Below, piece after piece: positions 2,467 to 11,563 of a stretch of 64,000 nt of DNA. The stretch's first letter is position 1; each line of letters begins with the position of its first letter. The translations under genes were made by a program, and so were the position numbers. This DNA is from Candidatus Poribacteria bacterium (GTDB taxonomy: Bacteria > Poribacteria > WGA-4E > WGA-3G): contig JAPPIG010000084.1 of the NCBI GenBank assembly GCA_028820635.1, positions 186,001 through 250,000 on the forward strand, in the 5' to 3' direction. The notes under the pieces are model-generated. The model made no database searches. It had not been told where the DNA came from and worked only from the letters and a program-made list of their open reading frames with translations.

Positions 2467-2530
2467 GTGCAGAACCATTCAGTTCTCCAATTATTTCCAC
2501 CTTTTCCCTAAAACCTCTTCCTGTAGGCGA
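2467..2530 (+). repeat. Dispersed CATTCAATTCTCC / CCTCTTCCTGTAGG repeat, copy 1
   Basis: Contains CCATTCAGTTCTCCAA, then CCCTAAAACCTCTTCCTGTAGG. The same two blocks in the same order recur at 19262 and, inverted, at 60003-60080; the first block alone recurs at 10533. At 60003 the second block runs directly into the palindromic GTAGGAGCGA unit, so this seems to be a longer version of that repeat. Confidence 0.6.
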
Positions 2531-2546
2531 CAAATCATGCAGAACA

Positions 2547-2620
2547 CCAAACGCTATGAATGCCAAAAAGCGCATTCATAGCGTTGATTTGGTATTCTGC
2601 CAAGCGCATTTGACGTTGAT
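2547..2620 (+). repeat. GAATGCC..GCATTC / GTTGATTT palindromic repeat
   Basis: GAATGCCAAAAAGCGCATTC followed by GCGTTGATTTGG, then a degenerate second unit (GCCAAGCGCATTTGACGTTGAT). Related units occur at 3209, 3249-3384, 8956, 11338, 55443 and 59786. Confidence 0.6.
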
Positions 2621-2875
2621 GCCGAACTCCAGCTCGCGACCGTATGCCCCTAACATTTCCAGCAAACTTATTGGAAATATATTGGATATCTATTGTCCAG
2701 TAAACCGCGAAAACTTCTGATCACCACACAGAAACAGGTATAATACCAGTATGAACAAACAAATGCAAAGACGACAACGCGAAACTTATCAAAATAAAAT
2801 ATGGACAGCAAGGAAAAAATCGTGTTCTTCAATGTAGAGGAGAAGAGAAAAATAAAAAATTAATTAAAAACAAGA

Positions 2876-2920
2876 AAAATGCCTATAAACCTATATTTAG
2901 ACTGGTGTTATAGGCATTTT
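2876..2920 (+). ncRNA. 45-nt hairpin with covarying partner (copy A)
   Basis: Perfect 13-bp stem AAAATGCCTATAA / TTATAGGCATTTT enclosing a 19-nt loop containing TAGACTGG. The hairpin at 11068-11112 has the same length and the same inner ATAAACC and AGACTGG, but stem bases 4, 6 and 7 are changed together with their partners. This is evidence that the structure is maintained. It could be a small RNA, a protein-binding site or the end of a mobile element; a simple terminator is less likely because there is no clean T-run. Confidence 0.5.
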
Positions 2921-2921
2921 C

Positions 2922-2947
2922 AAAATCATACCGTACGGTATGATTTT
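2922..2947. repeat. 26-bp perfect palindrome
   Basis: AAAATCATACCGT and its exact reverse complement, back to back. It is identical to 11134-11159 and lies two bases after the hairpin here. Could be an operator, a recombination site or a hairpin. Confidence 0.8.
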
Positions 2948-2952
2948 AAGTA

Positions 2953-3009
2953 GCAGCGATCTCCGAATCGCGACATATTTCTTTGTAGGAACGATCTCCG
3001 AATCGCGAC
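2953..3009 (+). repeat. REP-like CGATCTCCGAATCGCGAC repeat, two direct copies
   Basis: Two units, AGCGATCTCCGAATCGCGAC and ACGATCTCCGAATCGCGAC, spaced by CATATTTCTTTGTAGGA. The unit (GTAGGAGCGA..TCC..TCGCGAC) is a short imperfect palindrome resembling REP sequences of Pseudomonas and Xanthomonas. Confidence 0.7.
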
Positions 3010-3154
3010 AAAACGACTTGAACTGATAAAAAACCGAAATTGAACACCTCTGCCTAAGCCCCAGCGAGGCGACAGGTGTATAGAATAATACCAATTCTAA
3101 ATAATGATATAATATTATTTACAAAATCGGTTGGAAGAATGCAATATTTCCTTC

Positions 3155-3182
3155 TGTAGGAGCGACCTCCTGGTCGCGACCC
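3155..3182 (+). repeat. REP-like GTAGGAGCGACCTCC..GGTCGCGAC unit
   Basis: TGTAGGAGCGACCTCC then TGGTCGCGACC: GCGACC pairs with GGTCGC. Same family as 2953, 20704, 46635, 59853 and 60005. Confidence 0.7.
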
Positions 3183-3248
3183 ACCGAATACCATACGGGG
3201 AATCATGCAGAATGCCACACGCGCATTCTGCCAACGGCATTCATACCC

Positions 3249-3384
3249 GACAGATGCCAAAAAGGCGTGTGGCGTTGATTTGGACAGATGCCAAAAAGGC
3301 GTGTGGCGTTGATTTGGACAGATGCCAAAAAGGCGTGTGGCGTTGATTTGGACAGACACCAAAAAGGCGTGTGGCGTTGATTCA
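3249..3384 (+). repeat. 34-bp tandem repeat, four copies
   Basis: Units start at 3249, 3283, 3317 and 3351. Copies 1-3 are identical (GACAGATGCC, AAAAAGGCGT, GTGGCGTTGA, TTTG); copy 4 has GACAGACACC and diverges at its end. Units abut without spacers, so this is not a CRISPR array. Reading frames through it are artefacts of the repeat. The rest of 3385-3535 holds nothing I recognise. Confidence 0.9.
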
Positions 3385-3535
3385 CGGGACTAAAGCAGTT
3401 ACTTATATTCAGATAGGACTTATATTTTACCTATGGTTTTCGTGTAAACCTTACCTACCCACACTATAACTCCAAGTAATACACATCAACTAAAAATGCC
3501 TAAAACTAAATAATCCTGTCTATCTATAAAATTTA

Positions 3536-3565
3536 TTGACAAAAAACATTAAAATTTGGTATTAT
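3536..3565 (+). promoter_or_regulatory. Sigma70 promoter of the Nudix operon; leaderless transcript likely
   Basis: TTGACA (3536-3541), 18-nt spacer, TATTAT (3560-3565). The GTG start lies only nine bases after the -10 box, at or next to the expected transcription start, and no ribosome-binding site is present. A leaderless mRNA is inferred. Confidence 0.7.
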
Positions 3566-3574
3566 ATCTTTTAA

Positions 3575-4003
3575 GTGTATTGTTACGATTATCCGCGCCC
3601 CTCAGTGACTGTTGATATTGTGTTATTGACGGATGTCTTTCCGCATCCCAAAGTCTTGTTAATTCGACGTAAGACCCCTCCTTTTAAACACTTGTGGGCA
3701 CTACCGGGCGGTTTTCTGGAAATGGACGAAACACTTGAGGAAAGCGCACTACGCGAGTTAAACGAAGAAACGAATATATCAGACGTTGAACTGACACAAG
3801 TTGGAACTTTTGGACATCCCGACCGTGATCCACGCGGGCGTGTTATCACTATTGCTTACGTTGGAATCATAAATTCGGAACAACAGAAAGCTGTAGCAGG
3901 TTCTGATGCTGTGGAAGTTGCTTGGTTTTCAACATTAGAATTACCGCAGCTTGCATTTGACCATAGTGAAATAATCGAAAAGGCGTTGGAAGGATTAAAA
4001 TGA
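3575..4003 (+). CDS. Nudix hydrolase
   Basis: Hydrolyses a nucleoside diphosphate linked to another group; the substrate cannot be read from sequence. 142 aa, typical single-domain size. The Nudix box is complete: GGFLEMDETLEESALRELNEE with G, the RE pair and EE in register (about residues 47-70). A C-terminal VAWFSTLELPQLAFDH segment is typical of the ADP-ribose/NAD-type subgroup. Starts with GTG directly behind the promoter. Its stop overlaps the ATG of the rhamnose mutarotase gene by four bases (ATGA), so the two are translationally coupled. Confidence 0.9.
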   Translation: MYCYDYPRPSVTVDIVLLTDVFPHPKVLLIRRKTPPFKHLWALPGGFLEMDETLEESALRELNEETNISDVELTQVGTFGHPDRDPRGRVITIAYVGIINSEQQKAVAGSDAVEVAWFSTLELPQLAFDHSEIIEKALEGLK

Positions 4004-4332
4004 AACACTTCGGCTTAACCTTGAACCTAAAAAACGATCCAGCAATTATTGAACAATATAAGGCGTATCATAGAGATGCTTGGCCAGAGACATTGGCAGG
4101 TCTAAAAGCGGTTGGCATAACGAAAATGAATATCTACTTGTTAGGTCGGCGTTTATTTATGGTAATGGAGACTGTGGACACCTTTGATATAGAACGGGAT
4201 TTCCCGCGCTATCTTGAAGAACATCCGAAGTGTAGAGAATGGGATGAATTAATGCGAACTTTTCAGGAACCGATCGAAGAGGCACAACCAGGTGAATGGT
4301 GGGCACAGATGGAACTTGTATTTGAATTATAA
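4000..4332 (+). CDS. rhaM: L-rhamnose mutarotase-family protein
   Basis: 110 aa, the family's normal length. RhaM interconverts the alpha and beta anomers of L-rhamnose. Family hallmarks: KHFGLTLNLKNDP at the N terminus, the YHRDAWPE motif with its catalytic-region histidine, NIYLLGRRLFMVMET, and the tryptophan pair in EWWAQMELVFEL. No rhamnose isomerase, kinase or aldolase lies nearby, so it could act on another sugar (some members act on fucose or rhamnose-like oligosaccharide products). Overlaps the Nudix gene by four bases. Confidence 0.88.
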   Translation: MKHFGLTLNLKNDPAIIEQYKAYHRDAWPETLAGLKAVGITKMNIYLLGRRLFMVMETVDTFDIERDFPRYLEEHPKCREWDELMRTFQEPIEEAQPGEWWAQMELVFEL

Positions 4333-4398
4333 ATTGGCATAGAGCGTGAACATATAAGGTGTTGACAATCTTGTTTGTATGATTTCAAAGGTTGAAAA

Positions 4399-5328
4399 AT
4401 GACAATCAGTTACGACTTCATAGTATTCAGTGGTAGACTTTCAGAGAACAGTTGGATCCTTGGGATGAAAGCGATTCAAGGCGAAGTGCCTCTGGATATC
4501 GTCATACCGAGTTTGCATACATCATCAGATGCCGAGGATAAGGATATAATCGGAGTTTTGACAAAAGAGGGTATCTCGCGAGAAAGTTCCGATGTGATGG
4601 AACTTTACCGATATCTTCGGCAGTTAAACCCGAAATCGAATCAAGCATTTGGATACAATGAAGTTGCAATCCGCAATATCCATACCCGCCTAAATTTGCT
4701 AAAGGTTGACGAAGAGCTTCGCGTCCAAATTACTTATACCGAACGTAGAGAAAACTATACTCCCGTCGCATACAATATTAAATTGTTAGGCATCTTCCAG
4801 ATTACTGCTGCCGATACATTCGATTCTGAATCGGAAACACCTGAAATCACTGAAACAGATACGTCTGAAGAAAATATACAAGATGTTCCTGAACAAGATG
4901 AGAAAAATGTAATTCCAACAGAATTCCCTCAAACGGATCCAGAAATACCGGTTTATAAAACGACGAATACTCTGGAAAAATTAATCACTTTTACTCGAAC
5001 ACTACAAGCCGAATTAAAAGAAACAGTGGAAAATCTCGCTTTAATGACTGAAAGAGTGCAATTATTGGAAGAAGAGCGTCAACGCTACCGAGACCAAGAA
5101 AACTTACTCCAAGACATTCTTGATCGTCTCAACCAATTAGAAAATTTAAACAACCGAATCAACTCCCTTGAAGAAGACCGTCATCAGCTTGACAAGTTAC
5201 AACAAACTTTAAAAACGTACTTTAAAACTTCTAATCGGCAAACCCAAGCATTGCTTAAAGAGGTCAATGATGAAACGGACGATATCAACTCAGAAACTAA
5301 CCCTCGATCAAAAAGAAACGAATTCTGA
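4399..5328 (+). CDS. Coiled-coil protein of unknown function
   Basis: I do not recognise a family. Residues 1-130 look like a compact mixed alpha/beta domain without signal peptide. Residues 135-185 are acidic and low-complexity (SESETPEITETDTSEEN), and about 190-285 form a heptad-like coiled coil rich in Leu, Glu and Gln. A basic tail ends SKRNEF. No membrane segment, so cytoplasmic and probably oligomeric. Starts at ATG 4399 after a weak AAAGG. The following gene begins 15 bases later behind GAAAGGAGG, so it belongs to the same transcript. A scaffold role would be a guess. Confidence 0.7.
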   Translation: MTISYDFIVFSGRLSENSWILGMKAIQGEVPLDIVIPSLHTSSDAEDKDIIGVLTKEGISRESSDVMELYRYLRQLNPKSNQAFGYNEVAIRNIHTRLNLLKVDEELRVQITYTERRENYTPVAYNIKLLGIFQITAADTFDSESETPEITETDTSEENIQDVPEQDEKNVIPTEFPQTDPEIPVYKTTNTLEKLITFTRTLQAELKETVENLALMTERVQLLEEERQRYRDQENLLQDILDRLNQLENLNNRINSLEEDRHQLDKLQQTLKTYFKTSNRQTQALLKEVNDETDDINSETNPRSKRNEF

Positions 5329-5343
5329 AAGGAGGACCGTTTC

Positions 5344-6144
5344 ATGATGAAAATTGGCACGATGTCTTTGAATGTCAAAGGCACCACAGCAACCGATTTT
5401 GCCCAGATCGTATATGATCTCGGCTTTGATGTAATTGAACTCCATTCCAGTGCTTTTGAATCTACTGATGCAACTTATCTACGGGACCTGAAGATGAACC
5501 TCATGCGAAAAGGATTGCCATTAGGTTATATCGGAGTCAGCAATAATTTCGGTAAACCTGTTGCTGAACATCCCGAACAGATTGCGCTTATTAAGCAATG
5601 GATTGACGTTGCAGCCTTTATGAGTTGTCCGATTGTTCGGGTTTTCGCTGCCTACGTACCTGCAGATTGCGATGATGAAGAGACATTGTGGCCTCCTATG
5701 ATTGAAGGCTTTAAGGAGGTAGCAGAATACGGATACGAATCGGGGATTCTCGTTGGTCTTCAAAATCATAATCACAACAACGTTACACGCACTGGGGATG
5801 CCGTTTTACGTGCTTTAAATGAAACTGACCACCCATATTTCACACACATTTTGGATACGGGACAGTATGCAGGTTCTCCTGGTGCAAGTGGACATCGCGG
5901 TTCCCCTCATCCAGATTACGACTGCTATGCCAGTATTGAACAAACTGCACCTTATGCTGTTTACGTCCGCACAAAGTTTTATGAGATTGATAGCGGTGTA
6001 GAGGAATGGCTGGACTACCCGCGAGTTTTGGATATTTTGCGAGGTGTTGGGTATAACGGTTGTCTTTCTGTTGTCTATGAAGGCCAATCTGATCCGATTG
6101 AATCGATGCGTAAGGCAAGAAGTTATTTGGAATCTATATTGTAG
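5344..6144 (+). CDS. Sugar phosphate isomerase/epimerase (xylose isomerase-like TIM barrel)
   Basis: 266 aa AP endonuclease 2/xylose isomerase-like barrel. Members isomerise or epimerise sugars, inositols or keto-acids using a divalent metal. Visible: N-terminal MKIGTMSLNVKG, FDVIELHSSAF (first-strand glutamate), LVGLQNHNHNN (strand 5 metal-site His/Asn), THILDTGQY (Asp), and the C-terminal YNGCLSVVYEGQSDP glutamate. No signal peptide. Strong GAAAGGAGG nine bases before the ATG. The dehydrogenase gene starts eight bases after its stop, pointing to one pathway of sugar or polyol catabolism; the exact substrate is unknown. Confidence 0.85.
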   Translation: MMKIGTMSLNVKGTTATDFAQIVYDLGFDVIELHSSAFESTDATYLRDLKMNLMRKGLPLGYIGVSNNFGKPVAEHPEQIALIKQWIDVAAFMSCPIVRVFAAYVPADCDDEETLWPPMIEGFKEVAEYGYESGILVGLQNHNHNNVTRTGDAVLRALNETDHPYFTHILDTGQYAGSPGASGHRGSPHPDYDCYASIEQTAPYAVYVRTKFYEIDSGVEEWLDYPRVLDILRGVGYNGCLSVVYEGQSDPIESMRKARSYLESIL

Positions 6145-6152
6145 AGGGTAAG

Positions 6153-7256
6153 ATGAAAACACGTGCCGCTGTCATGTATGAACACAATCAACCTGTGGTT
6201 GTTGAGGAGCTGGAGTTAGAAGAACCGAAAGCGAACGAAGTTCTTGTCCGTACTGCTGCAAGTGGTGTGTGTCACTCCGACCTATCTGTCGTCACGGGTG
6301 CTATCTATTACGATGCGGCTGTTGTGCTTGGACATGAGGGTGCGGGTGTAATTGAACATGTTGGAAGCAATGTAACAGATTTTCAGGTGGGAGACCATGT
6401 AATCCTCTCATTTGTCACCTATTGCGGTGATTGTTACATGTGTCAGATGGAAAAAGTGTGTCTGTGTGAAAGTTACAATGTGGCGCGTGGTTTTCAATTA
6501 GATGGGACTTACCGCCTCTATAACAAATCAGGTGATGGAATCCTACAAATGGCACGGATCGCAACGATGTCGGAATACATGGTTGTGCCGCAACAGAACC
6601 TCGTCAAAATTGACCATGATTACGCGTTAGAGAAAGCAGCACTTGTAGGGTGCGGTGTGACAACAGGCGTTGGTGCTGTCTTGAATACTGCAAAAGTTGA
6701 ACCCGGTAGTTCCGTAGCGGTTATCGGCACAGGGGGAGTCGGTTTAAATGCTATTCAAGGTGCTGCGCTCGCACAAGCAGAGAAGATTATCGCTGTTGAT
6801 ATTGCAGAGAAAAAACTTGACTTTGCCAAAAGTTTTGGCGCAACGGATGTTGTCAATGCTGCTGAGATTGATCCGGTTGAAGGAGTTCGTGAGTTGACAG
6901 ATGGTCGCGGTGTAGATTATGCGTTTGAAGTAATTGGGAATCCAGAGACTATCGCTCAAGCATATCGTATGGTGCGTGCCGCTGGTACTGCTGTTATTGT
7001 CGGAATAGTACACCATCAAAAGGAATTCAGTATACCTGCACAACACTTTGTCACTTCTGAAAAACAGATCATTGGATCTTTCTACGGTTCGTGTCAACCG
7101 CGAGTGGATATGCCGAAACTTCTCAGTCTTTATACGGAAGGGAAGTTGAAGTTAGATGAACTGATTACTCGCCATTATTCTCTTGATCAGATTAACGAGG
7201 CATTTGCCGATATGGAAGCAGGTGAAAACGCCCGTGGTGTAATCCTCTTTAATTGA
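6153..7256 (+). CDS. Zinc-dependent alcohol dehydrogenase
   Basis: 367 aa medium-chain dehydrogenase. Catalytic zinc ligands are in GVCHSD and GHEG; the structural-zinc lobe has CGDCYMCQMEKVC. The Rossmann motif GTGGVGLNAIQGAALA and following acidic residue (IAVDIAEKK) indicate NAD preference. Overall pattern (LVGCGVTTGVGAVLNTAKVEPGSSVAVIG) is that of class III-type enzymes (formaldehyde/glutathione- or mycothiol-adduct dehydrogenases), though alcohol or polyol substrates fit the neighbouring sugar isomerase. ATG 6153 is preceded by AGAGGGTAAG. Confidence 0.92.
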   Translation: MKTRAAVMYEHNQPVVVEELELEEPKANEVLVRTAASGVCHSDLSVVTGAIYYDAAVVLGHEGAGVIEHVGSNVTDFQVGDHVILSFVTYCGDCYMCQMEKVCLCESYNVARGFQLDGTYRLYNKSGDGILQMARIATMSEYMVVPQQNLVKIDHDYALEKAALVGCGVTTGVGAVLNTAKVEPGSSVAVIGTGGVGLNAIQGAALAQAEKIIAVDIAEKKLDFAKSFGATDVVNAAEIDPVEGVRELTDGRGVDYAFEVIGNPETIAQAYRMVRAAGTAVIVGIVHHQKEFSIPAQHFVTSEKQIIGSFYGSCQPRVDMPKLLSLYTEGKLKLDELITRHYSLDQINEAFADMEAGENARGVILFN

Positions 7257-7288
7257 CATCCTTCCTTTTATCACAATGAATACGCAAA

Positions 7289-8065
7289 ATGAAATCCATA
7301 CACACCTCTGTCCGTGAACAGTTTAGCCAACATGCTGACTATTATGCACAAAGCAGCGCGCATGCTAAAGGCGATACCCTTGAGGTTATCCTTGACTTTG
7401 CCGATCCGAAAGGAACAGAAAAGACGTTGGATATTGCGACAGGTACAGGATTTACAGCGTTTGCACTTGCACCTAAGGTAGCACATGTAATCGCCACGGA
7501 TCTCACGCCTGAGATGGCTGTAAAAGCGTCCGAGTTAGCACAGGAACAAGCAATAGAGAACGTCACGTTTTCCGTTGCTGCTGCAGAGTCTTTACCGTTT
7601 GCTACTGCCTCGTTAGATTTAGTAACCTGCCGACTTGCTCCTCACCACTTCCAAGATGTTCCCAAATTCTTGAGCGAGGTTCACCGGGTTTTACGAACAG
7701 ACGGGCTTTTTTGTCTCGTAGATTCCGTTTCTCCCGAATTAGAAAAATTAAGAGCATGGCAAAATCGCGTTGAAAAGTTACGCGATGATTCTCATGTATA
7801 TGGATATCCGCCATCTCAGTGGGATGCGATGATTTCGGATGCCGGTTTTGATATTGAGAAAACAGCACACACGCGAAATGCGCTTATGTCGTTTTTGTGG
7901 TGGGTGCGTCCACAGAAAAATCCGCCGGAAGTAGTACGCGAAATCCGTGAAGCTTTTGCCCAACTTTCACCTGATGATGCAAAAGAGCATTATACAGTTG
8001 AACCCGCAGGCGATGATTTCTATTTTTCGTGGCCGATGTATGCAGTTAAAGCGCGGCGAGGGTAA
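7289..8065 (+). CDS. Class I SAM-dependent methyltransferase
   Basis: 258 aa Methyltransf_11/UbiE-like protein. SAM-binding motif I LDIATGTGFTAFALA (about residues 50-64), motif II acidic residue in VIATDLTPEM, post-motif LVTCRLAPHHFQD and VLRTDGLFCLVDS. The SAM fold is complete, but the methyl acceptor is not predictable; C-terminal FYFSWPMYAVKARRG is typical of small-molecule methyltransferases. Follows the dehydrogenase by 32 bases, last gene of the operon. A convergent gene lies 67 bases downstream; I see no clear terminator between them. Confidence 0.88.
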   Translation: MKSIHTSVREQFSQHADYYAQSSAHAKGDTLEVILDFADPKGTEKTLDIATGTGFTAFALAPKVAHVIATDLTPEMAVKASELAQEQAIENVTFSVAAAESLPFATASLDLVTCRLAPHHFQDVPKFLSEVHRVLRTDGLFCLVDSVSPELEKLRAWQNRVEKLRDDSHVYGYPPSQWDAMISDAGFDIEKTAHTRNALMSFLWWVRPQKNPPEVVREIREAFAQLSPDDAKEHYTVEPAGDDFYFSWPMYAVKARRG

Positions 8066-8132
8066 AATCTCTTAGATGCGGTAGACAATATGTTTAGACA
8101 CATTTTAAGAAGTAGTGACAAAGTTCTCTAAT

Positions 8133-8561
8133 CTAATTCCTTATTAATAAAAGTTGATCTTCAATCCATTCGTCATCGTGGTCAGGGTTATAGATTAGCC
8201 CTTTTTTGATGTCAAGACAGAGATCAAGCATCTCCAAAATCATGTGTCCTACAAGCACAGGTACATTTTCTGGTATATCTGTCACCTCAATTATTCCGCT
8301 TCTTTCAAGGACTGTAAATTGTACTGGTGAATAAATAAATCTGTCCACAATACCGTTTGTGGTTTGCCCTTTCCTACTACCAACAGGTGTCAAACCGAGT
8401 TGTTCAACGAGTGATTTCGGTAAAGACAATTGAGAAGCACCAGTATCAACGACTGCGTTTTCAACAGTTATACGCCGAACCTCCTCAGGATCAATAACGC
8501 CTGCCTCTGTCAGATTCAAGTCTTTTAAATTTACAAGTTCAATTCTCGTTGTATGTTTCAT
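8133..8561 (-). CDS. Retropepsin-like (clan AA) aspartic protease
   Basis: 142 aa. The catalytic motif VVDTGASQLSLPKSLVEQLGL is intact and is followed by the flap and a second hydrophobic-hydrophobic-Gly segment (PVLVGHMILEMLDLCLD), as in single-domain retropepsins that work as dimers. No signal peptide or membrane segment. I start at ATG 8561 (MKHTTRIELV) with AGGGA upstream; the frame is open 29 codons further but that part reads as leader DNA. Such proteases are common orphan genes in cyanobacteria and related uncultured lineages, often near toxin-antitoxin genes. The natural substrate is unknown. A transposase remnant lies just upstream. Confidence 0.82.
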   Translation of the reverse strand: MKHTTRIELVNLKDLNLTEAGVIDPEEVRRITVENAVVDTGASQLSLPKSLVEQLGLTPVGSRKGQTTNGIVDRFIYSPVQFTVLERSGIIEVTDIPENVPVLVGHMILEMLDLCLDIKKGLIYNPDHDDEWIEDQLLLIRN

Positions 8562-8686
8562 TGGTCCCTGATTGTCCTCAGCATAAATTGATGGTGTGTA
8601 ATGTTCAGGATATGTTTTGAGGATAACATATAGATTCTTGAATAGCAAGTGATACTTGATAGTATTAACGTGAGCTTGATAATCAG

Positions 8687-8830
8687 ATTGAATATAGATG
8701 TAGGTTGGGTTAAGACACTTCCGGAGAGTTTGCGTATCCTTTGGACGAACCCGCAGCTCAAGGCTGCTTCGTTAGCAGTCGTTTGAAGTATATCTTGCAT
8801 TTTATCGGAAACCTGTGTTAGTATAGACAT
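8687..8830 (-). pseudogene. IS4-type transposase N-terminal remnant
   Basis: About 48 codons starting MSILTQVSDKMQDI contain TANEAALSCGFVQR and RKLSGSVLTQ, which resemble the N terminus of IS4-family transposases (TANEAAKETGFVQR.. type). After IFN the similarity stops and the frame runs into unrelated DNA at the protease gene's leader. The DDE domain is absent. An inverted repeat (8835-8887) sits just upstream and may be the old element end. Confidence 0.6.
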
Positions 8831-8834
8831 TGGA

Positions 8835-8887
8835 ACACCTCTTTGTAGAAATAAGTAAAGTTGTTTTCTACATTATGCAAGAGGTGT
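8835..8887. repeat. Inverted repeat beside the transposase remnant
   Basis: ACACCTCTT (8835-8843) and AAGAGGTGT (8879-8887), with an inner TGTAGAA / TTCTACA pair. Probable end or leader hairpin of the dead insertion sequence. Confidence 0.55.
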
Positions 8888-8951
8888 CTCCACTTTGCAA
8901 CACTTTTTTAAACACTTAATACATACAGAATATTTTCTTAAGTTGACACCC

Positions 8952-9022
8952 GGGGAATGCCTAATGGCATTCATACCGTTGATTTATGGGTTTCACCTTC
9001 GGTTCAACCCGACCTACGGGAT
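8952..9022 (+). repeat. Composite of two dispersed repeat units
   Basis: GGGAATGCCTAATGGCATTC and ATACCGTTGATTT belong to the GCATTC/GTTGATTT family; GGGTTTCACC..GGTTCAACCCGACCTACGGG is the GTCGGGTT..AACCCGAC family seen at 15547-15702. The remainder of 8888-9236 shows no convincing gene: a 65-codon ORF at 8895 is made largely from these repeats. Confidence 0.55.
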
Positions 9023-9236
9023 TTATCAAACTCAAGTTAACCTAAGTTGCTACTTACGGGATTATGAGTGGGCAGCCGTTACTTTTTACTAAAAAAATAA
9101 TGGATTTTCCACTGTTTCTGACGGTTTCCGTTATAAATCGTGGTTAGAAGACCTCCTACAAGAAGTTTCACAAAATAGATAGCAACTTGAGTTAAAATAA
9201 TTGGCTTTAGAAGTTCTGAATCGTAGAGGTCCTGCT

Positions 9237-9440
9237 ATGGACACGAAACGCCGCAGAAGTTTCCAGTTAGAAGATGCTAAAGGGAATAAACTTGCCACAG
9301 GTGTTATCTATGATGAGGGCAATGTTCAGGTGTTATGGCGAATAGATTGTGGGTACACCGCTGAACAATATGCTTCTCTTAACCCTGTTTTAGATTTAAT
9401 GCCGGAAGTCGCTGTGCTGCGCCTCCAAGATGTTGAGTGA
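9237..9440 (+). CDS. Small hypothetical protein
   Basis: 67 aa, MDTKRRRSFQLEDAKGN.. with a predicted beta-rich body (VIYDEGNVQVLWRIDCGYTAEQYAS) and no signal or membrane segment. I chose ATG 9237 (AGAGGT just upstream). Amino-acid composition is protein-like, but I know no family. It lies alone between repeats and a convergent gene 13 bases downstream. Confidence 0.5.
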   Translation: MDTKRRRSFQLEDAKGNKLATGVIYDEGNVQVLWRIDCGYTAEQYASLNPVLDLMPEVAVLRLQDVE

Positions 9441-9453
9441 AACATCTCACTTT

Positions 9454-10326
9454 TTAACGGAGTCTGCGATCAGCTAACTTTATGATTTGCCCACTTTCCT
9501 GCGCAATATACATATAGCCGAGTCCATCTAATGTTATCCCTTCTTGATCATCTCCTGGTAATAGGTATCGCTGAAGGTGTGTCCCATCACGTTTGAGTTC
9601 AACAAAAAGGTTTGTTGTATCGCTGATTAACACAAGAGAATCTGCTTTGGCATTGTAGGCGAGTCCAGAAATATCCAAGAATTCCATCTCAAAGAAACGG
9701 ATAATATTGGCTTCCGCTTTTGCTGCTTCGGAGGTGAGAAGCGGTGCAACAACTTCACATATAACTGAAGGTTCTCCGCCAGGTTTGCGACTAAATGATT
9801 GATTGCCAATCCAAAATGTTCCACCCTCTGGGTGTGAAGAATCCGGAACAAAGGCAATTGCCTCTATTCCCATACCCCCTTTTTTCAGAAGCGATTCTCC
9901 CTCAAAAGTGCGATTGACTTTAAACTCCCGATGGACCGTGAGCGTCTGCGGATCAATTTCCAAAATAACTTCTTCATCCTCAACAGCAACATAAAGCCAT
10001 CCAGTTGTTGGGTTAGTCGTAATTCCTTCAAGGTCACGCGCTTGCAGTGCCTTCGTTTGGATAACCTTACCATCTGGACGAATTTCCTGAATATGTCCCC
10101 CATCATCCACCACGAATAGGGTCCGCCGTATTGGATGAAAGGTTACGCCAGAAGGTTCAGCGATTGTAGTCTTGCTGATGTTGCCTACCCAAGTGTATGG
10201 CAGTTCAACTGGCATAGAAGCAGCTTTCTTTTTTCGCTCGGCGTCTTCTATCCTTATAAGAAAGTAGACCATAAACGCACTGATAAACATAAAGCCGAAT
10301 AAAGCAAAAATTTTGTTATTGCGCAT
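9454..10326 (-). CDS. SdiA-regulated family beta-propeller protein
   Basis: 290 aa with an N-terminal membrane anchor or uncleaved signal (FALFGFMFISAFMVYFLIRI). The rest reads as a propeller of the SdiA-regulated/YjiK type: EPSGVTFHPIRRTLFVVDDGGHIQEI, RDLEGITTNPTTGWLYVAVE, GIEAIAFVPDS, DISGLAYNAKADSLVLIS, DQEGITLDGLGYMYIAQESG. The repeated SG/EG-I/V motif at each blade is diagnostic. Probably periplasmic, exact function unknown. It shares fold, but not sequence class, with the propeller at 26089. Confidence 0.82.
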   Translation of the reverse strand: MRNNKIFALFGFMFISAFMVYFLIRIEDAERKKKAASMPVELPYTWVGNISKTTIAEPSGVTFHPIRRTLFVVDDGGHIQEIRPDGKVIQTKALQARDLEGITTNPTTGWLYVAVEDEEVILEIDPQTLTVHREFKVNRTFEGESLLKKGGMGIEAIAFVPDSSHPEGGTFWIGNQSFSRKPGGEPSVICEVVAPLLTSEAAKAEANIIRFFEMEFLDISGLAYNAKADSLVLISDTTNLFVELKRDGTHLQRYLLPGDDQEGITLDGLGYMYIAQESGQIIKLADRRLR

Positions 10327-10532
10327 CGGTGTTACCCTCTGTCTTTTTGTAGAAGATATATCAAATATGGAGTCGCGAAGGAACAGTCCGAGTGTTATTA
10401 ACTATTACACTTGATTTTTAAAAAACCGATAAAGAAACCTTCCTGATAAATAATGGCATTTTTATAAACAACTATGTTGTAAAAATCTATCATATTTTTT
10501 CTGGAATGTCAAGTGCAAAAAATACATTGGGC

Positions 10533-10562
10533 AGAACCATTCAATTCTCCAATGATTTCTTT
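10533..10562 (+). repeat. CATTCAATTCTCC repeat, copy 2
   Basis: GCAGAACCATTCAATTCTCC then AATGATTTCT, near-identical to copy 1 at 2471. Lies directly upstream of the MITE-like element. Bases 10327-10532 hold AT-rich leader DNA of the propeller gene and nothing else I recognise. Confidence 0.6.
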
Positions 10563-10623
10563 ACCAAGACTCCAAAAAATCGCGTCAACCACCAGGCTGA
10601 CAATAAAATGCACGCTCATCCAA

Positions 10624-10806
10624 GATGCAAAAAACGTATCACCCATAGGTGTAAAGTTAAGAAAAAATGTTGGATTTTTTCTTGTTGGAGGGGTTTAAAA
10701 CCCCGATTTAACTGCTTGAATCTTGAAATATCGGGCTTACAAAGCCCTCCAACAAGATGATATATCCTTAAGTTTACACTTATGGATGCAAAAAACGTAT
10801 CACCCA
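10624..10806. mobile_element. MITE-like element 1 with 22-bp direct repeats
   Basis: Identical 22-bp direct repeats at 10624-10645 and 10785-10806 enclose a 139-bp element with imperfect terminal inverted repeats (ATAGGTGTAAAGTTAAG at 10645 and CTTAAGTTTACACTTAT at 10767, 15 of 17 pairing). A perfect inner inverted repeat CTTGTTGGAGGG / CCCTCCAACAAG lies at 10681 and 10745. No coding capacity. The ORFs crossing it are repeat artefacts. Confidence 0.7.
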
Positions 10807-11067
10807 ACTTTTCCAGCAAACTTATTGTCCATATATTGGATATCTATTGTTCCGAATACCACATAAACTTATGACTATCACCTATAATCAAGTATAATAT
10901 CAATATGAAAAACACAACCACGCCCCAAACACAAAAACAGCCAGTACACAAATCTAAAGCAAAACATAAACGAGAAAATGTTGCTCAAAATTATACCAAT
11001 TTAGCCATAATATTCAAAAATCGTGAAAGTTATCCAGGTCATAATTGCAAAAAAGTGCAACAACGGA

Positions 11068-11112
11068 AAATTCGCCATAAACCCAATAACAGACTGGACT
11101 TAGAGCGAATTT
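11068..11112 (+). ncRNA. 45-nt hairpin with covarying partner (copy B)
   Basis: Stem AAATTCGC / GCGAATTT with inner ATAAACC and CAGACTGG. Same length as 2876-2920. Stem positions 4/42, 6/40 and 7/39 are A-T, G-C, C-G in copy A but T-A, C-G, G-C here. Confidence 0.5.
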
Positions 11113-11133
11113 AAAAAACATACCGTGGTATGA

Positions 11134-11159
11134 AAAATCATACCGTACGGTATGATTTT
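11134..11159. repeat. 26-bp perfect palindrome, second copy
   Basis: Identical to 2922-2947. A shorter relative, CATACCGTGGTATG, precedes it at about 11118-11132. Bases 11160-11278 contain a decayed REP-like stretch (GTAACGAATTCCAATCGCGG) only. Confidence 0.8.
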
Positions 11160-11278
11160 AGTTGTAACGAATTCCAATCGCGGTAGTAGAAATCACAGGA
11201 TCGCGACTTACGACTCAAACGGATAATAATTGGATACATATTCGGATTAAATCGCATATACTGCTCTGCATTTCTTAT

Positions 11279-11520
11279 AGAGTGTGTAAAGTTTTCAACA
11301 TAAAAATTCTTTTCTATTGTTGGAGGGTTTCAACCCTCCGAATGCCAAAGGCGCATTTAGCGTTGATTTGGACAGATGCCATAAGGTATTTGGCGTTGAT
11401 TCTGTTCATACCGTTGATTTCTTGATTTGGCGTATGAGACGTTGATATGGATAAATCGGGCTTATAAAGCCCTTTAACAAGAAAGATGACATGGTTAATG
11501 CCAAAATATTTACACACCCT
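11279..11520. mobile_element. MITE-like element 2 with internal repeat insertion
   Basis: Ends AGAGTGTGTAAA (11279) and TTTACACACCCT (11509) pair at 11 of 12 positions. Inner arms TTGTTGGAGGG and CCCTTTAACAA match element 1. Between them sit GAATGCC..GCGTTGATTT units (11340-11440) like those of the tandem array at 3249. No coding capacity. Confidence 0.6.
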
Positions 11521-11534
11521 GTTTTTCTTTTTCC

Positions 11535-11563
11535 TTGACAAACCCAAAATTCAATGATATAAT
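11535..11563 (+). promoter_or_regulatory. Consensus sigma70 promoter of the crystallin-ThuA gene
   Basis: TTGACA (11535-11540), 17-nt spacer, TATAAT (11558-11563): a full consensus, 50 bases before the start codon. Predicts strong constitutive transcription. Confidence 0.85.

Follow-up and report, generated by a model that had tools for sequence, protein, structure and literature searches.

We analysed a 64,000-nucleotide stretch of a Candidatus Poribacteria genome (contig JAPPIG010000084.1, positions 186,001 to 250,000; hereafter the window) in which two distant hairpins of similar build had been noticed, and found that they are probably pieces of two old copies of a dispersed DNA element of sponge-associated Poribacteria, which in its complete form joins a leader to a DUF2280-like gene. 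The two window copies lack this gene and are best read as decayed relics that resemble miniature inverted-repeat transposable elements (MITEs). An RNA model of the core of the element (about 103 nt, built from 16 copies) was searched over 39 genomes and gave 38 copies at E<=0.01 in the window's own genome, with copy 1 of the window scoring 77.9 bits. Matches were found in 17 of the 39 genomes, namely 16 of the 18 of the genus, one of the five others of the family and none of the 16 farther ones; copy number per genus genome reached 65, and the model had no match in the genus genomes G001 and G011. The original prediction, which had read the hairpins as structures under selection, named a lack of further copies as one ground for refutation, and further copies proved abundant, uncovering a genus-wide repeat family of sponge symbionts. 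In the own genome the 26-bp palindrome that accompanies the hairpins has 11 occurrences if up to 3 mismatches are allowed; the loop pattern has 10, always with a spacer of exactly 7 nt where 5 to 20 were permitted. Both the repeat family and the gene of its complete copies are apparently undescribed: the family did not turn up in the literature on Poribacteria, repeats, MITEs, transposases and DUF2280, judged partly by title, and the portions of PMC3909097 consulted held transposase in one sentence and none of the other four terms sought.

The two hairpins (Table 1) share the features that had first set them apart. Both are 45 nt long with ATAAACC and AGACTGG at identical offsets, and three stem positions are changed on both sides with pairing intact, 4/42 being A-T in one and T-A in the other, 6/40 G-C and C-G, and 7/39 C-G and G-C. 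They are not chance formations, because the spaced pattern ATAAACC-N6-12-AGACTGG is found twice in the window against 0.00 expected and the RNA fold z-scores of hairpins 1 and 2 are -4.97 and -5.34. The perfect stem is longer in copy 1 (13 bp) than in copy 2 (8 bp). Each hairpin had also been described as followed by the same 26-bp palindrome, and the identity is exact (no other window site matches at up to 3 mismatches), but in copy 2 the palindrome does not adjoin the hairpin, since 21 nt with a further, imperfect palindrome intervene. Copy 1 lacks 20 nt between hairpin and palindrome relative to 15 other aligned copies, and its palindrome therefore represents the outer arms of two hairpins fused together.

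The paired stem changes had been taken as covariation, and hence as selection on structure rather than on sequence, a claim that holds only in part once more copies are compared. From 154 matches, 116 rows remained after removal of partial, reverse-strand palindrome and duplicate matches; the gapless alignment used for the test (A3) covers 68 of 118 distinct cores, with window copy 1 (83 nt, owing to its deletion) and more distant or gapped families left out, and was compared with 500 shuffles. Relatedness among copies inflates pairing, the number of double-change cells and covariation scores, and the sturdier counts are the number of pairs with a double change and the number of further pair types. 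Positions 4/42, 6/40 and 7/39 (alignment columns 15/53, 17/51 and 18/50) form standard pairs in 9, 22 and 10 of the 68 copies, and the four-pair lower-stem segment 15-18/50-53 has 25.7% of its cells paired against 25.5% in shuffles, so that a conserved lower stem was rejected. Other copies thus lose pairing at the very positions first cited, but it is better kept in the ten pairs adjoining the loop, where 80.0% of cells are paired against 72.7% in shuffles and 50 double-change cells stand against 27.2 expected (columns 21/47 in 27 copies, 23/45 in 10 and 25/43 in 11). None of the 500 shuffles was as high in pairing, double-change cells or covariation score of this loop-proximal stem, which accordingly exceeds them on three of five measures, whereas its sturdier counts were reached by 317 (pairs with a double change) and 441 (further pair types) of the 500. 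The hairpins offer a worked case of how covariation between two copies can mislead, with the highlighted pairs dropping to chance level at 68 copies.

The palindromes change in concert more clearly than the stem does. They are built of repeated arms, NNTACC / GGTANN, which can be paired in two ways: nested (1:4 and 2:3), with 93.4% of cells paired and a covariation of 0.247 against 0.080 in shuffles, or side by side (1:2 and 3:4), with 94.4% and 0.258 against 0.088. Their sturdier counts were not clearly beyond shuffles, being reached by 80 and 17 of 500 for the nested pairing and by 495 and 114 of 500 for the other. In their first two letters arms 1 and 3 agree in 57, arms 1 and 4 in 59 and arms 3 and 4 in 62 of the 68 copies; agreement with arm 2 is found in 42, 47 and 45, and shuffles give 37 at most. 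The TACC core is near-invariant, with columns 65, 67 and 68 constant in 67-68 and column 66 in 61 of the 68 copies. Covariation of inverted repeats therefore exists in the element, mostly outside the pairs first noticed, and it need not mean selection on RNA, because template switching can yield paired changes by mutation alone. According to the parts of PMC8794818 consulted, template switching can create and repair perfect stems in one event and is a mutational source of compensatory changes. A serious possibility, which we rate somewhat below even, is that the covariation is mutational throughout: template switching among close inverted repeats, along with conversion from copy to copy, would have produced it while selection on structure played no part. 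Such a process would fit the restriction of perfect lower stems to a few copies with imperfect relatives, the homogenisation of inverted and direct arms alike, and the difference of the orthologous loci in the own genome (G000) and its nearest relative (G017) in all four arms at once, but the near-invariant TACC core points to some constraint as well. We hypothesise that the concerted variation of hairpin and palindromes arises from template switching, where inverted repeats lie near each other, together with conversion between copies, while the TACC core, and some of the pairing too, would be under constraint. Nearby inverted repeats here change together in a manner that mutation alone could cause.

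The same observations bear on whether the hairpins belong to a functional cis-acting RNA leader, attenuator-like and under selection, through which solo copies (those without the gene) would regulate the gene downstream. The better kept upper stem and the concerted palindromes speak for such a leader, as does a conserved -10-like box with an adjoining ATG, which precedes the leader in the own and nearest genomes and is present at up to 2 mismatches in 39 of their 49 copies and on the reverse strand in none of the 49. However, the lower stem is at chance, so helices do not exceed chance across the whole hairpin, and neither the double-change pairs nor the pair types of the loop-proximal stem rise above shuffles; the hairpins have not been shown to be a new structured RNA. 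A known RNA was rejected, since no Rfam family reached its gathering threshold in the element, the four matches (E 0.02-0.65) all lying below it. The element is like Rfam attenuators and leader RNAs in having stem-loops before the ribosome-binding site of gene-bearing copies, and differs from them in this lack of a threshold match, in that much of its pairing is not conserved, and in the unrelated genes downstream. Both window genes have consensus-like promoters of their own beyond the element (TTGACA-18-TATTAT at 3536 and TTGACA-17-TATAAT at 11535), and the palindromes were not scored as terminators.

A further point in favour of such a leader is the placement of the solo copies. Of 108 distinct copies, 96 remained for an orientation test after removal of 5 gene-bearing ones and 7 with no downstream open reading frame (ORF) in the available piece, with the longest ORFs (120 aa or more) standing in for genes. 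In 90 of the 96 the downstream ORF lies on the same strand (p 6e-13, 5e-11 and 3e-5 against same-strand nulls of 0.62, 0.655 and 0.78, derived from intergenic-type lengths in 20 loci of gene-bearing copies, in the window and in the copies' own loci, respectively), a count that becomes 81 of 87 when related downstream ORFs are represented by a single copy each and 89 of 95 without L318, which has a partial DUF2280-like ORF downstream. By context, 25 copies are co-directional in sense against 1 in antisense, 45 are divergent and 1 is convergent. A REP-like (repetitive extragenic palindromic) repeat used as a control shows a similar bias (14 to 6, co-directional 10 to 0), so part of the orientation bias may be general; another terminal repeat gave 11 to 8. 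Core and gene lie a median of 286 nt apart, which sits poorly with a leader, and the downstream proteins share no function: in Pfam counts on 92 of the 96 downstream proteins (the four on the opposite strand left out) and 78 of 79 upstream proteins (with a near-duplicate omitted), all truncated to 420 aa, no family was enriched downstream (PhyH 5/92 against 6/78 upstream), and the idea that solo copies mark one gene class was rejected. Taken with its two sides, a selected RNA leader seems unlikely. The placement of this repeat in one orientation before genes may stem from insertion preference, from loss of copies that read antisense into genes or from a regulatory role.

Complete copies, which give the element its gene, consist of the leader with hairpin region and palindromes, an AAGGAG-type ribosome-binding site, and an ORF beginning about 16 nt past the palindromes. 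Most of the complete ORFs encode 212-266 aa (extremes 155 and 310) and share two conserved parts, HKxFAVKxFAxFM and RRLNITHxQFPxKYRxLF. Matches to PF10045 (DUF2280) at E<=0.1 were obtained for 14 of 15 proteins (best 9.4e-5), the displayed scores of 13.7-18.8 bits, which do not include that of the best member, lying below the curated cut-off of 24; phrog_546 was matched at E<=0.05 by 12 of 20 (best 1.1e-4). The gene product thus appears weakly similar in sequence to the phage-type family DUF2280. This likeness consists of weak profile matches to both families, and the element's protein differs in having a long helical segment between its two conserved parts, and the element in having several loci per genome and a conserved leader; the own-genome protein had no match among 50,697 phage records. 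In the consulted part of PMC7760358, the entry directly ahead of the terminase large subunit in an Acinetobacter prophage table is a DUF2280 protein; no terminase was recognised near the gene here, the neighbouring ORFs being read by eye only. The predicted protein model comprises two N-terminal helices, one of about 95 residues and three others (predicted local distance difference test, pLDDT, 83.0; predicted template modelling score, pTM, 0.50). A fold search of this model against PDB and viral models gave nothing at E<=0.001, a search of solved structures with the protein gave E 0.24 or worse only, and NCBIfam gave nothing above cut-off.

The gene is under purifying selection, since the nonsynonymous rate (dN) is below the synonymous rate (dS) in four complete gene pairs (dN/dS 0.105/0.299, 0.128/0.526, 0.033/0.065 and 0.124/0.317). 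Two peptide patterns run against a public genome collection, which may not hold the window's own record, found 41 loci, all 41 in Candidatus Poribacteria, making this an uncharacterised conserved gene limited to Poribacteria within the collection searched. Most copies of the element are without it, and some outside the own genome retain its first codons only. When the own genome was searched with the G004 protein, a single complete gene (C119, 2749-3510) came up, along with a remnant (C117) that has an internal deletion. At L091 (G007) and L092 (G011) the order is reversed, the block of hairpin and palindromes following the DUF2280-like gene. At G004:C43 (L110) and G016:C88 (L111) the gene follows a cas3-like ORF and is followed by a cas4-like and a Cas10-like ORF, respectively, and at G012:C116 (L112) a Cas10-like ORF lies downstream, all named by eye; membership in CRISPR (clustered regularly interspaced short palindromic repeats) loci was rejected, as no cas genes were recognised by eye at the other listed loci.

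The shared loop might instead owe its conservation to coding, as the end of a small PINPYRDW-like protein upstream of the DUF2280-like gene. In the frame of the loop several subfamilies read PINPYRDW, PFRPYYDW, PMKLYENW or PINPVPDW with partly different codons, and G008/G014 have an open frame of 83 codons with dS 0.06 and dN 0.005. These G008/G014 changes are, however, 3 synonymous against 1 other and too few to tell, the small frame in G000/G017 has a dN of 0.58 above its dS of 0.42, and the frame is interrupted by stops, which in the G015 and G002 subfamilies are located at the tryptophan or near it and in many copies a short way upstream of the motif, so that a coding loop looks improbable.

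That the element has moved is suggested by its ends and its distribution. Terminal inverted repeats of 15 bp, CAGAGCCATTCAATT / CAGAGGCATTCAATT, stand at unit ends in G000 and G017, where they were found in the right orientation at the 5' end of 22, at the 3' end of 27 and at both ends of 17 of the 49 copies, against 3 and 4 of 49 in the wrong orientation. The own genome holds 63 exact occurrences of the 15-mer, among them pairs 155-244 bp apart that resemble shorter repeats with identical ends. Eleven units with both ends span 467-750 nt, which is too little for a usual transposase gene, and inspection by eye revealed no such gene in any of them. For copy 2 there is an empty site: G001, G003 and G014 lack, at this position, about 995 bp that hold the copy along with other repeats. 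The flanks of copy 1 lie on different contigs or far apart in the listed genomes, with no syntenic site, and some copies represent one insertion present in two species. On the complete chromosome G009 (OY282386) nine loci have a leader 94-99% identical over at least 450 nt, and in these young copies (L237, L238, L249, L251, L255, L257-L259 and L266) the gene is cut off at differing points, so that dispersal in G009 is recent.

Several observations weigh against reading the hairpins as parts of such an element. Twelve of 14 gene-bearing loci have no enclosing inverted repeat of either type within 3 kb and the remaining two, in G011 and G017, are doubtful, so the gene-bearing and the inverted-repeat forms may not be one transposon; the G011 locus is enclosed by one inverted-repeat type, and in G017 the ORF is preceded at 996 nt by an exact 5' repeat and directly followed by a candidate with 3 mismatches, the G000 ortholog of this locus having a 3-mismatch 5' candidate only. 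No transposase was identified, a genome-wide search for one with these ends not having been made, and among 11 copies viewed by eye for target-site duplications, near-repeats of about 10 nt were seen in two and none in most. Among the G013 copies (L054, L070, L186-L195) at least two, judged partly by eye, seem to end in GGGTGTGTAAAGTTTTTGTAC. An exact 10-mer end test outside G000 and G017, insensitive as it is (at most 1 of 34 even in G000), was positive for another repeat in 2 of 12 G013 copies and convincing for none in G006, G015, G008/G014, G002 and G005/G012. Moreover, the orthologous complete copies of G000 and G017 differ in arm type, GT against TA/CA, although their proteins are 80% identical and nearly the same over the first 40 residues, which makes it less likely that the arm sequence is set by the protein.

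With these points counted in, the dispersed leader-and-gene element still seems the likelier account of the two hairpins, and we hypothesise that its gene-less copies would be spread in trans, as MITEs are, by a transposase recognising the inverted repeats, possibly a foreign one acting on the ends of the solo copies. The gene product, which starts with a two-helix domain, might bind the repeated NNTACC arms and so control its own transcription. A bolder idea, that a phage-type, DNA-binding protein (DUF2280-like) and its operator-bearing leader form a self-spreading pair whose gene-less leaders, almost always in one orientation, are movable binding sites placing dozens of unrelated genes under the control of the protein, strikes us as very unlikely. 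Like MITEs, the element is short, multicopy and without a transposase, with inverted terminal repeats in many copies and an empty site for copy 2; unlike them, it has no parental transposon that was found, no clear target duplications, a core shared with the leader of a gene and, in some copies of another species, seemingly other ends. We describe the solo copies as MITE-like but stop short of classing them as MITEs, because gene-bearing loci are mostly unenclosed, target duplications are unclear and no transposase came to light. REP sequences are short palindromic, intergenic, oriented repeats. The element is likewise intergenic, oriented and palindromic, a likeness to the class at large, and REP-like units adjoin many of its copies, but its size of about 0.5-0.6 kb, its inner structure and its gene-bearing form set it apart from them.

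Table 1. Features of the two element copies in the window.
Feature	Position	Strand	Sequence or remark
Element copy 1, solo form	2470..3052	+	RNA model core; inverted repeats at both ends, 2 mismatches each; no DUF2280-like ORF
5' terminal inverted repeat, copy 1	2470..2484	+	CAGAACCATTCAGTT
Conserved -10-like box plus ATG, copy 1	2739..2755	+	TATAATACCAGTATGAA
Hairpin 1 (first hairpin of the original prediction)	2876..2920	+	AAAATGCCTATAAACCTATATTTAGACTGGTGTTATAGGCATTTT
26-bp palindrome, copy 1	2922..2947	+	Joined arms 1 and 4 of the usual block of two palindromes; 20 nt absent
Two REP-like repeats within 3' part of copy 1	2950..3010	+	GTAGCAGCGATCTCCGAATCGCGACA and 92% copy
3' terminal inverted repeat, copy 1	3038..3052	-	AATTGAACACCTCTG on +
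Element copy 2, solo form	10532..11240	+	3' end approximate; its 3' inverted repeat not found
5' terminal inverted repeat, copy 2	10532..10546	+	CAGAACCATTCAATT
Other repeat inserted in copy 2	10645..10784	.	Flanked by 21-bp direct repeats 10624-10644 and 10785-10805
Conserved -10-like box plus ATG, copy 2	10893..10909	+	TATAATATCAATATGAA; -35-like ATGACT 16 nt upstream
Hairpin 2 (second hairpin of the original prediction)	11068..11112	+	AAATTCGCCATAAACCCAATAACAGACTGGACTTAGAGCGAATTT
First, imperfect palindrome, copy 2	11119..11132	+	Arms 1 and 2, CATACC GT GGTATG
26-bp palindrome, copy 2	11134..11159	+	Arms 3 and 4, CATACC GTAC GGTATG

The repeat inserted in copy 2 (10624-10805 with its flanks) is an inverted-repeat element of about 140 nt, whose 21-bp direct repeats, GATGCAAAAAACGTATCACCC, constitute an unusually long apparent target duplication. 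Directly after copy 2 (11280-11519) lies a second short repeat with the ends GAGTGTGTAAAGTTTT / AAATATTTACACACCC, and at 3249-3382 the window holds tandem units with a 34-nt spacing (GACAGATGCCAAAAAGGCGTGTGGCGTTGATTTG).

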